Positions 393-53,043 of a stretch of 64,000 bases of DNA are shown here, one piece after another (the first letter of the stretch is position 1; every line of letters starts with the position of its first letter). A program made the position numbers and the translations under genes. The stretch is taken from assembly GCA_017450205.1 (NCBI GenBank), contig JAFSVF010000019.1, positions 1 to 64,000 of the forward strand, read 5' to 3'. The stretch comes from Bacilli bacterium (GTDB lineage: Bacteria > Bacillota_I > Bacilli_A > RF39 > UBA660). Under the pieces are notes generated by a model. That model worked only from the letters and a program-made list of their open reading frames with translations. It did not search any database and was not told the origin of the DNA.

Positions 393-2384
393 ATGGAATT
401 AAAAGAGTTAAAAGGAATAGGAAGTAAAACACTTGCAAGTCTTCGTGATTTGGGCATAAATTCAATAGATGACTTAGTGAGATTTTATCCATTTAGATAT
501 AATGTTTATAAACCTATAAATCTCAATAATTTGACTTCGAATGAAACTGTTACAATTATAGGAAAAGTAGTCTCAAAAGTATCTTTTTTTAGAGGTAATA
601 AAGTAAGTAATATTATAAGATTTAGTTTTGAAACTTGTAATAGAATTATCAATGTTACAATTTTTAATCAACCTTATTTGAGTAAACAATTATATATAAA
701 TAAAGAATTAACATTAGTTGGTAAATATGATGAAATAAATAATATATTTACTGTTTCTAAAGTGATAAATGAGAAATTAGATCACACTTTAATTGAAGGT
801 GTATATCATGTAGGCACTAATATAAAAAAAGGAGTATTAGTAAATTTAATTAATGAAGCTTTAAATCAATATGATATTAAAGAAGTTATTCCTGATTATA
901 TTAATAATCAATATGAATTAATTAGTTTAAAAAAAGCTTTAAGTATTATTCATAATCCTACTAATAATAATGATTATAAAAAAGCATTATTAAAACTTAA
1001 ATATGAAGAATTATTTGTTTTTATGTTTAAAATAAATTTGTTAAAAATAAGAAAAGAGTTATCTGAAAGCTTTGTAATAAAAGATATTAGTGATGATATG
1101 TTGAATGAAGTAAAATCTTTAATTCCTTTTAATTTAACTAATGGACAAAATGAAGCATTAAAAGATATTATTAATGACTTTAAAAAATTAAGAAGAATGA
1201 ATAGACTTGTTTTAGGAGATGTAGGTAGTGGTAAAACAATTGTTGCTTTTCTATCTTTAATACTAAATTCTAAGTGTGGATATCAAGGAACTATGATTGC
1301 TCCAACAGAAGTATTAGCACAACAACATTTTAATAATTTTGTTAATATCTTTAAAGATTTAAATATAAAAGTAAGTCTTTTAACAGGAAGTACTTCTCTT
1401 AATGAAAAAAAACAAATTTATAAAGATTTAAGAAATGGAAATATAGATATTTTAATTGGAACTCATGCAATCTTAGAAGATAATGTTATATTTGAAAATT
1501 TAGGATTAGTTGTTACTGATGAACAACATAGATTCGGAGTTAATCAAAGAAACTCGTTAAGAAATAAGGGTAAACATGTTGATGTTTTATATATGAGTGC
1601 AACACCAATTCCTAGAACTTATGCTTTAACTATTTATGGAGATATGGATATTTCTATTATTAAAGATAAACCAAGTAATAGAAAAAAAATAAAAACATAT
1701 AAATATGATTTTAGTCATATGAATGATGTTATGAACATTGTTAATAATGAGTTAAATAATAAACACCAAGTTTATATGGTAGCACCTTTAATTGAAGATG
1801 AAGAATCTGACTTAAATGATTTAAATAATATAAAAGATACTATTAGTAAGTATTTAGATAAGAATATTAAAGTAGGTATACTTCACGGTAAATTAAAAAA
1901 TATCGAAAAAGATAAAATAATTAATGATTTTAAAGAAGGAATTACTGATATATTAATTTCTACTACTGTTATTGAAGTTGGTGTAGATGTAGCTAATGCT
2001 ACATGTATGGTTATATTTAATGCAGAAAGATTTGGGCTTTCTACATTACATCAATTAAGAGGTAGAGTTGGAAGAAATGATTTAGAATCTAAATGTATTT
2101 TATTAAGTGATAAAGATTCTGAAAGACTTGATTGTTTAGTAAAAAGTAATGATGGTTTCTATATTAGTGAAATGGATTTAAAACTTAGAGGATCAGGTGA
2201 TTTATTTGGTATTAGACAACATGGTGATATGGAATTTAAAATAGCAAATTTAGTACAAGATAACAAAATACTATTACAAACTAAGAAAGATTCTGAAGAA
2301 TTTATTAAAAATAATATAGAAAATAATTTTATAAATTATCCTTATTTTAAGGCAATTGTTGAATATTTAATAAATAATGATTAA
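393..2384 (+). CDS. recG: ATP-dependent DNA helicase RecG
   Basis: RecG is the cytoplasmic superfamily 2 translocase that regresses stalled replication forks and processes Holliday junctions. The 663-residue product is close to the usual 670-690. It shows an N-terminal wedge/OB region (LKGIGSKT at the start), Walker A GDVGSGKT at about 275-282, the DEQH box at 376-379, SATPIPRT, the motif VI-type QLRGRVGR from 554, and the C-terminal LKLRGSGDLFG.RQHG block typical of RecG. The ATG is preceded by AGAGGTAA. It is a single-gene unit between the hairpin cluster and the small RNA promoter. Identity is near certain. Confidence 0.97.
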   Translation: MELKELKGIGSKTLASLRDLGINSIDDLVRFYPFRYNVYKPINLNNLTSNETVTIIGKVVSKVSFFRGNKVSNIIRFSFETCNRIINVTIFNQPYLSKQLYINKELTLVGKYDEINNIFTVSKVINEKLDHTLIEGVYHVGTNIKKGVLVNLINEALNQYDIKEVIPDYINNQYELISLKKALSIIHNPTNNNDYKKALLKLKYEELFVFMFKINLLKIRKELSESFVIKDISDDMLNEVKSLIPFNLTNGQNEALKDIINDFKKLRRMNRLVLGDVGSGKTIVAFLSLILNSKCGYQGTMIAPTEVLAQQHFNNFVNIFKDLNIKVSLLTGSTSLNEKKQIYKDLRNGNIDILIGTHAILEDNVIFENLGLVVTDEQHRFGVNQRNSLRNKGKHVDVLYMSATPIPRTYALTIYGDMDISIIKDKPSNRKKIKTYKYDFSHMNDVMNIVNNELNNKHQVYMVAPLIEDEESDLNDLNNIKDTISKYLDKNIKVGILHGKLKNIEKDKIINDFKEGITDILISTTVIEVGVDVANATCMVIFNAERFGLSTLHQLRGRVGRNDLESKCILLSDKDSERLDCLVKSNDGFYISEMDLKLRGSGDLFGIRQHGDMEFKIANLVQDNKILLQTKKDSEEFIKNNIENNFINYPYFKAIVEYLINND

Positions 2385-2404: not shown

Positions 2405-2433
2405 TTGACAAAAAATATAATATTTTTTATATT
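2405..2433 (+). promoter_or_regulatory. Strong promoter of the small RNA
   Basis: A perfect TTGACA -35 (2405-2410) is followed after exactly 17 bases by TATATT (2428-2433). Expected transcription start is at about 2440, immediately before the first RNA stem. Confidence 0.7.
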
Positions 2434-2439
2434 TAATGT

Positions 2440-2543
2440 AGCAAGGTAGATAATTGCCTTGCGGTATCTCTAATGATTTTTTAGAAGATACAACCAAAAC
2501 CCCCTGAAAGAGAGACATGAATAATTGTCTCTCGCTTTTTTTA
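2440..2543 (+). ncRNA. Candidate structured small RNA of about 100 nt, family not recognised
   Basis: No open frame fits here. From the predicted start the RNA folds as three hairpins: GCAAGG/CCTTGC (2441-2446 with 2457-2462), GTATCT/AGATAC (2464-2469 with 2486-2491), an unpaired AACCAAAACCCCC stretch, and GAGAGAC/GTCTCTC (2510-2516 with 2527-2533) ending in a T7 tract. A dedicated consensus promoter and its own terminator make it an independent unit, not a leader of the next gene, which starts 105 nt further on. I do not recognise SRP RNA, 6S RNA, tmRNA, RNase P or a known riboswitch in it. Confidence 0.6.
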
Positions 2544-2647: not shown

Positions 2648-4117
2648 ATGAATTTATCTAAATCTAGATATACTAAAGGCGTTACATGTGAAAAATATTT
2701 GTGGTTAAATTGTTATAAACCTGAATTAGCAGAAGATATGGGTAATCAAACTGTATTTGAAAATGGTAATAAAGTTGGTGATTTAGCTAGAAGTCTTTTT
2801 GGAGATTATAAGTTAGTTGAATATACAACTGATTATAAGAAAATGATTGATGATACTAAAGAATGTATTGATAGTAAAGAAAAAGTAATTTGCGAAGCTT
2901 CTTTTAGTTATAATGGTAATTTTATATCTGTTGATATTTTGAAAGTATTAGATAACGGTTTAGAAATATATGAAGTTAAATCGTCAACTGAAGTAAAAGA
3001 TATTTATATAGATGATATTTCATATCAAACTTGGGTTCTAAAAAAATTAGGATATAATGTTTTAAAATCTTCAATTGTATATGTTAACAATCAATATATT
3101 AAAGATGGAAATTTAAATATTAAAGATTATTTTGTTGTTAGAGATGTAACAGAATTAATTGATTTAGATAAGGTAGAAGAAAAAGTAAAAGAATTAAAAA
3201 AAGTATTAGATAGTAATTTAGAACCTAATAGAGATCTTTCAATTAATTGTTTTGATCCTTATAATTGTCCATATTTTAAATATTGTACTAAAAAATTAAA
3301 ATCTCCAAATGTATTTGATTTGGGTTGGGGATTCACTACAAAGAAAAAATTAGATTTATATTATAAAAACATAATAGAATATGAAGATTTATTAAAAAGT
3401 GGATTATTAAATGAAAAAACAACTAATCAAGTTCAAGTTAATTTAGGAAAGAAAAAAGAAATAATTGATAAAGATTATATAAAGAATGTTTTAGATACTT
3501 TAAAGTTTCCTTTATATTTTTTAGATTTTGAATCTTATCAAGATGCTATTCCAGTTTATGATGGAACAAAACCATATCAACAATTATGTTTTCAATATAG
3601 TCTACATATAATAGATAAAGATGGTACTATTACACATAAAGAATACTTACATGATAAGTATGATACTAATCCTATTTATGGTTTATGTGAATCTTTATGT
3701 AATGATATTCCTAAAGATGTTTGTGTTGTTGTTTATAATGATGGTTTTGAAAAGTCTAGATTAAGAGAAATGGCTTATTTGATACCCGAATTAAGTGAAC
3801 ATTTATTAAATATTAGAGAAAATATTGTAGATTTATTACCTGTATTTAAAAATCAAAAGTTTTATACTAAAGATATGAAAGGTAGTGCATCTATTAAATA
3901 TGTTTTACCTGCATTGTATCCAAATGATGAAGATTTAAATTATCATAATTTAGATCAAGTTCATAAGGGTGATGAGGCTAGTGCTGCATATTTATCTTTA
4001 AAAGATTTATCTGAAGATGATAGAGAAATTTTAAGAAAAAATATGCTTAAATATTGTGAATTAGATACTTATGCGATGGTTAAAATATATGAAAAATTAA
4101 GAGATGTTGTAGACTAA
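2648..4117 (+). CDS. DUF2779-type nuclease: Cas4-like PD-(D/E)XK domain plus RNase H-like exonuclease domain
   Basis: The N-terminal half resembles Cas4/RecB-type nucleases: an SRYTKG..CEKYLWL start, an E109-V-K111 core, a QTWVLKKLGY helix, and cysteines C201, C207 and C213 that with the early Cys could bind an Fe-S cluster. The C-terminal half starts with YFLDFESYQ (D293, E295), a DEDD-exonuclease-like signature of the DUF2779 family, and ends with ELDTYAMV. A role in DNA processing or defence is inferred; no substrate can be read from sequence. The start is uncertain: the frame is open from 2615, but the ATG at 2648 (MNLSKSRY) matches the family start, with only a weak GATGTGAT upstream. 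It stands alone. Confidence 0.75.
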   Translation: MNLSKSRYTKGVTCEKYLWLNCYKPELAEDMGNQTVFENGNKVGDLARSLFGDYKLVEYTTDYKKMIDDTKECIDSKEKVICEASFSYNGNFISVDILKVLDNGLEIYEVKSSTEVKDIYIDDISYQTWVLKKLGYNVLKSSIVYVNNQYIKDGNLNIKDYFVVRDVTELIDLDKVEEKVKELKKVLDSNLEPNRDLSINCFDPYNCPYFKYCTKKLKSPNVFDLGWGFTTKKKLDLYYKNIIEYEDLLKSGLLNEKTTNQVQVNLGKKKEIIDKDYIKNVLDTLKFPLYFLDFESYQDAIPVYDGTKPYQQLCFQYSLHIIDKDGTITHKEYLHDKYDTNPIYGLCESLCNDIPKDVCVVVYNDGFEKSRLREMAYLIPELSEHLLNIRENIVDLLPVFKNQKFYTKDMKGSASIKYVLPALYPNDEDLNYHNLDQVHKGDEASAAYLSLKDLSEDDREILRKNMLKYCELDTYAMVKIYEKLRDVVD

Positions 4118-39705: not shown

Positions 39706-39782
39706 GGTCTGTTGGTGAAGTGGTTTAACACATAACCCTCTCAAGGTTACATTCATGGGTTCGAATCCCATACAGATCACCA
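39706..39782 (+). tRNA. tRNA-Glu, anticodon CTC
   Basis: Cloverleaf: acceptor GGTCTGT/ACAGATC, anticodon stem TAACC/GGTTA with loop CTCTCAA, T-arm ATGGGTTCGAATCCCAT, discriminator A and an encoded CCA. The backbone is that of tRNA-Glu. The anticodon (39740-39742) reads CTC and so decodes GAG, rather than the usual TTC. No second tRNA is adjacent. Confidence 0.9.
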
Positions 39783-52894: not shown

Positions 52895-52900
52895 AATCGA

Positions 52901-53020
52901 GATAAAAAAACGAGTACCGAAGACAGCAAGGGGATTTATCCTTAATAATCTTGCCGAGGGAAGGTTTAACTAATATATAAAATATATATAGTGAACTTTC
53001 CTTTGTGGAAAGTTTTTTTA
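52901..53020 (+). promoter_or_regulatory. Ribosomal protein L10 leader (autoregulatory mRNA structure) with attenuator
   Basis: The sequence ACCGAAGACAGCAAGGGG followed by CTTGCCGAGGGAAGGTTT is the conserved core of the Bacillota L10 leader, where the L10(L12)4 complex binds to repress rplJL. It ends in an attenuator hairpin AACTTTCC/GGAAAGTT (52994-53001 with 53007-53014) and T7. The GGAAGGTT segment can pair with the attenuator arm, an antiterminator arrangement. Confidence 0.8.
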
Positions 53021-53043
53021 TAAATATTTTAAGGAGGACATAT

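Follow-up and report, generated by a model that had tools for sequence, protein, structure and literature searches.

What lies between recG and the DUF2779 gene of this uncultured bacterium, and on what would its product act? The gap, from the end of recG at 2384 to the start of the DUF2779 gene at 2648, is 263 nt, and not the 230 bases given in the first-pass annotation, which had placed there an unassigned small RNA (sRNA) that has a promoter and a terminator of its own and comprises three hairpins together with a C-rich linker of antisense type. That reading is supported by the comparisons of predicted transcripts and genomes described here, and the RNA is proposed, with a probability of roughly 0.6, to be a conserved trans-encoded antisense sRNA that represses several scattered type I toxin-like loci in common. 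The features of the locus are as follows, in coordinates of the window (the whole stretch of 64,000 nucleotides that was analysed).

393..2384, + strand: recG, conserved upstream neighbour, with RecG_wedge and helicase domains
2405..2433, + strand: sRNA promoter, -35 TTGACA at 2405-2410, 17-nt spacer, -10 TATATT at 2428-2433; 11/12 consensus match
2440..2542, + strand: predicted sRNA of ~100 nt, 5' end placed from the -10 box; fold z = -6.6
2441..2462, + strand: hairpin 1, which folds; 6/7 pairs covary on both sides in relatives
2466..2489, + strand: hairpin 2, which folds; 7/9 pairs covary on both sides in relatives
2492..2509, + strand: C-rich single-stranded linker AACCAAAACCCCCTGAAA, near-invariant core AACCCCCTGA at 2498-2507
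2510..2542, + strand: hairpin 3 and T-run, intrinsic terminator; 7/7 pairs covary on both sides in relatives
2648..4117, + strand: DUF2779 gene, downstream neighbour in the window only; PF11074, E = 9.6e-47

A structured RNA family downstream of recG

The promoter is the top-scoring site of the region, and the terminator stem at 2510-2533 is followed by T7, with 0.1 terminators obtained from shuffled sequences; both elements were thus found as first annotated. The predicted transcript folds into three hairpins at -33.2 kcal/mol, compared to -15.8 kcal/mol for shuffles (z = -6.6), and the linker is unpaired in this fold, as had been claimed. The DUF2779 gene is not part of the sRNA system. Directly before recG, an open frame at 3-149 (PIESWHSLLKKETLYNN...FYNTKRLKSKTTRK) is presumably the C-terminal end of an IS3-type transposase, which it resembles.

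A search with the linker AACCAAAACCCCCTGAAA, one mismatch allowed, found matches in 61 of 197 related genomes, all in the window's own family, and the reversed linker gave 0 matches in the same 197 genomes. Most of the matches share one anatomy of promoter, hairpin, hairpin, linker and terminator. In an alignment of 21 sequences, 93.8% of the cells were paired, a percentage favoured by the structure having been drawn from and fitted to these same sequences. Of its 23 pairs, 20 had changed on both sides, in all three helices, and the covariation score was 0.641, compared to 0.244 for shuffles and at most 0.18 with the partners slid. So many double changes would hardly be expected unless the helices were under selection, and the relatives bear out the predicted three-hairpin fold. 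An initial covariance model, R1, whose structure had been derived automatically, performed poorly; its successor, R2, was built from this alignment and its structure. R2 finds the sRNA in 190 of 243 genomes of the window's family (129/148 genera) and matches the window itself at 2440-2540 (E = 6.8e-8); in a class draw of 296 genomes just 2 from other families match, and a phylum draw of 392 gave no match outside the window's family. A recG-like gene lies upstream in ~40 of the sRNA loci examined, which have variable downstream neighbours, and a promoter of at least 10/12 precedes the linker in 84% of 57 relatives' loci, compared to 10% in shuffled sequence. By these comparisons the window sRNA is confirmed as a member of a real conserved RNA family, with the promoter, intrinsic terminator and conserved structure that characterize trans-encoded base-pairing sRNAs. 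Among the matches listed, public records with the motif are mostly metagenome assemblies labelled as uncultured Bacilli, Erysipelotrichaceae or Tenericutes, many of them from gut or rumen, and single matches in unrelated organisms are probably chance. The only match in viral contigs was an sRNA locus itself.

No known family accounts for the RNA, as the first reading had stated. Against Rfam 15, no family reaches the gathering threshold at the sRNA locus. The best match below threshold, RAGATH-19 (24.6 bits, where 85.6 are needed), was rejected as chance similarity, being absent from other members of the sRNA family. A ribosomal protein L10 leader at 52899-53027 and tRNAs at 39706, 62022 and 62102 are the window's only Rfam matches. 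Likewise, no paper describing such an RNA was found in a literature search covering few subscription journals. Among Firmicutes sRNAs, RsaE/RoxS and the UCCC-motif sRNAs of S. aureus have C-rich seeds, and they share with the window sRNA an unpaired, C-rich segment of a kind that can match G-rich sites close to Shine-Dalgarno sequences; however, the window sRNA has no Rfam match to any of them, and seed, structure and locus differ.

In 51 members found by R2, two main linker types occur, AACCAAAACCCCCTGAAG and CAACCGAACCCCCTGAAG, and linker positions 7-16, AACCCCCTGA, are near-invariant across both. Members found by the model were used here because the pattern search had chosen its sequences by the motif; R2 contains the linker, so that this estimate of seed conservation is less biased, not unbiased. 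The almost invariant core, together with the complementary sites in other predicted transcripts described below, agrees with the suggested antisense role of the link and provides the conserved unpaired seed of a trans-encoded base-pairing sRNA.

Complements of the linker in toxin-like genes

Some copies of the motif are not sRNA genes, and on the opposite strand they carry the complement. This complement of the seed, CAGGGGGTT(TT), is found repeatedly, in up to ~10 copies per genome, a short distance upstream of the Shine-Dalgarno sites of genes for hydrophobic peptides of 21-38 aa; usually a predicted hairpin encloses it and conceals the Shine-Dalgarno site. This arrangement, with the site 26-52 nt upstream of the ATG of peptides such as MSKKDLLIFSLLIIIILLILK, is that of many genera other than the window's. 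In the window's genus (G000, G001, G004, G007) the complement belongs to the 3' UTR of genes for Fst-like peptides, where it follows the stop codon of a hydrophobic peptide of ~20 aa and precedes a hairpin, which is the terminator of a putative facing small RNA.

For the 5' UTR sites, the pattern CAGGGGGTTTT, spacer, GG, spacer, ATG was searched in 243 family genomes and occurred in 29 of them, with 54 rows listed compared to 4 for the reversed pattern. The sRNA itself accounts for ~16 of the listed rows and attachment sites for 3; of the remainder, ~30 precede a short hydrophobic peptide, and L308, L326, L327 and L329 are chance-like. Conservation of the motif in these sites is partly by selection of the data, because the patterns required it. 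In G021, where ~10 sites occur, copies were also recovered by overall similarity without the motif, and nearly all keep CAGGGGGTT, one having CAGAGGGTT. Four sites occur in G281, and tandem pairs in G115, G131 and G136. In the partial 0.8-Mb genome of G021, a single toxin-like unit is present ~10 times or more (L371-L392), with many of the copies at contig ends, and mobility or amplification of this unit is possible.

Over 25 leader occurrences, among them several near-duplicates, the predicted folds leave the Shine-Dalgarno site mostly paired (mean unpaired 0.19) and place the target site towards the top of the same hairpin (mean unpaired 0.29), and the predicted duplexes between leader and sRNA linker average -25 kcal/mol, ranging from -20 to -33. 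The two 3' UTR sites of the window's genome form predicted duplexes of -34.6 kcal/mol (19 bp) and -21.9 kcal/mol, compared to about -7 for shuffles. The G243 leaders L443 and L445 are unlike in the bases that follow GGGGGTT, and the opposing hairpin arm has changed with them, which suggests that the hairpin is kept by selection. The sRNA thus shows, towards predicted mRNAs of short hydrophobic peptides, the complementarity that marks type I antitoxin RNAs.

Ten target peptides were compared with Pfam and NCBIfam, where they matched no curated Fst or type I toxin family, a comparison of low power for peptides so short. In 12 of 24 site occurrences, leader-like sequence was found past the peptide gene, on the opposing strand (p <=0.01), in repeats that are same-sense (inverted) and not complementary. 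A local antisense RNA is therefore likely at the target loci, in a predicted arrangement like that of par/Fst with same-sense repeats. At five loci, L061 and L291 in the window's genome and L078, L079 and L082, a putative small RNA faces the gene of an Fst-like peptide, and a copy of the sRNA seed directly follows the terminator of this facing RNA; read-through of that RNA would hence carry the same seed.

These loci resemble par/Fst (RNA I/RNA II of pAD1) in combining a gene for a short hydrophobic peptide with a small RNA that probably faces it; in the window's genus, sequence is shared between the two 5' regions, which overlap at a terminator hairpin. No Fst family model matches the target peptides. 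To our knowledge, the site for a trans-acting sRNA has no counterpart in par. The direct repeats of par pair (PMC4147584), whereas the shared sequence at the target loci is same-sense in both RNAs, forming an inverted repeat in the DNA. Trans-acting type I antitoxin RNAs are represented by OrzO (PMC3919570), IstR-1 (PMC4147584) and, in trans, SprA2AS (PMC6393315), and like the window sRNA they are small RNAs complementary to mRNAs of short hydrophobic peptides. They adjoin their own toxin gene or a paralogue, whereas the window sRNA is encoded on its own, at a core locus that is conserved, and has matches in several scattered loci, whose toxicity and repression are putative.

Probable repression and its alternatives

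Since a fixed C-rich stretch matches the control regions of toxin-like genes, one housekeeping RNA probably controls a scattered set of them. In the proposed mechanism, hairpins 1 and 2 and the terminator would present the C-rich linker single-stranded, with the core AACCCCCUGA as its seed, and the linker would pair with CAGGGGGUU(UU) sites in other predicted transcripts. These sites would be met in the hairpin hiding the Shine-Dalgarno site of type I toxin-like peptide mRNAs or, in the window's genus, at the 3' UTR of Fst-like peptide mRNAs instead; pairing would leave the peptide untranslated or mark the mRNA for decay, and one core-genome RNA would back up the local antisense RNAs of several dispersed loci. 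Repression is judged the most likely outcome, given that the site falls on hairpins already hiding the Shine-Dalgarno site and that the peptides resemble type I toxins, while a 3' UTR site, as in the window's genus, would not obviously be a translation block. It also counts against the proposed mechanism that many target sites are themselves partly paired in the leader fold.

It is possible, though somewhat unlikely, that the RNA is instead a core regulator acting on ordinary mRNAs through a short seed, and that toxin-like loci adopted the seed complement later, being repressed or serving as sponges that titrate the sRNA. In fact, the distribution of the sRNA is far wider than that of its detected sites: it is present in most genomes of the family while toxin-type sites are patchy, and many sRNA-bearing genomes have no detectable toxin-type target, among them 17 genomes, mostly of the variant-linker clade, where the search found no such site. 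A compensatory change of seed and target was sought in that clade and none was found, the search having turned up no targets there. CAGGGGG close to an ATG is also modestly commoner than the reversed control (~87 compared to 52 in 25 genomes), and this excess, with the wider spread of the sRNA, makes an additional or different core role possible. However, this weak excess counts the sRNA itself among its matches, the analysis identified no conserved target among ordinary mRNAs, and the long seed matches are confined to toxin-like loci, sRNA genes and attachment sites, bar a few that are chance-like. A general anti-Shine-Dalgarno regulator was considered and rejected on the same weak enrichment near starts.

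The opposite sign of regulation is quite improbable; here the sRNA would pair with one of the two strands of the leader hairpin, release the Shine-Dalgarno site and so activate the toxin-like mRNAs. In several leaders (L454, L315) the site is paired inside the hiding hairpin, which sRNA pairing could open. In many leaders (L334, L443, L455), however, the site is close to the hairpin tip, and the lower stem, which covers the Shine-Dalgarno site, would stay closed; a core RNA with a constitutive promoter that turned a toxin on would also be hard to maintain.

The linker as an attachment site

Besides repression, the linker would serve a second purpose. At ~15 sRNA loci a homologous gene faces the 3' end of the sRNA, and the two members scanned are tyrosine recombinases (PF00589). 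Near-identical terminators occur in distant genera behind different host halves. In G265 (L265:890-17649), an island of 16.8 kb lies in the sRNA gene with the core AACCAAAACCCCCTGA at both ends, carrying an integrase (PF00589), a repressor-like gene and genes of phage replication type, as well as a type I restriction system and a GmrSD-like gene. An adjacent integrase and a core at both element ends, as at RNA genes used for attachment, are thus present, and by these boundaries and gene contents the sRNA gene is an integration hotspot, in whose linker tyrosine-recombinase elements would insert; the core AACCCCCTGA is accordingly read as both putative seed and crossover region of integrative elements in relatives. 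The window's own copy is uninterrupted. As an attachment site, the linker would receive elements that supply a new terminator, so that the RNA gene would survive insertion. tRNA and tmRNA genes are likewise attachment sites, in the 3' part of which tyrosine recombinases insert with the gene preserved; the sRNA differs from them in being a putative regulator, in having the crossover in its seed and in obtaining its terminator from the element.

That the locus makes no functional RNA, its conserved linker being a mere attachment site, is already disfavoured and very improbable, for the facing recombinase genes, the island bounded by the core and the shared terminators would fit it, but hairpins 1 and 2 covary upstream of the crossover, promoters are conserved, many loci including the window's are without integrases, and complementary sites in peptide mRNAs are not predicted by an attachment site.

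Repression of the toxin-like loci by the sRNA and insertion at its seed may be joined in one bolder scheme, unlikely to hold as a whole: the core RNA would be the shared trans antitoxin of toxin-like loci genome-wide that have local antisense RNAs, its seed would be the insertion site of defence-carrying islands, and the system would guard its own locus. If this were true, loss of or damage to the sRNA gene, for example by a badly integrated element, would release the toxins.

Conclusively, a new and structurally well supported RNA family is described from a large group of uncultured gut bacteria, for which we found no sRNA described so far, and the family now has concrete, testable predicted targets. 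The analysis marks a putative regulatory RNA gene as a hotspot for the integration of islands, one of them with a type I restriction system and a GmrSD-like gene. Furthermore, it suggests that a single housekeeping RNA may govern type I toxin-like loci, beyond purely local antitoxins.
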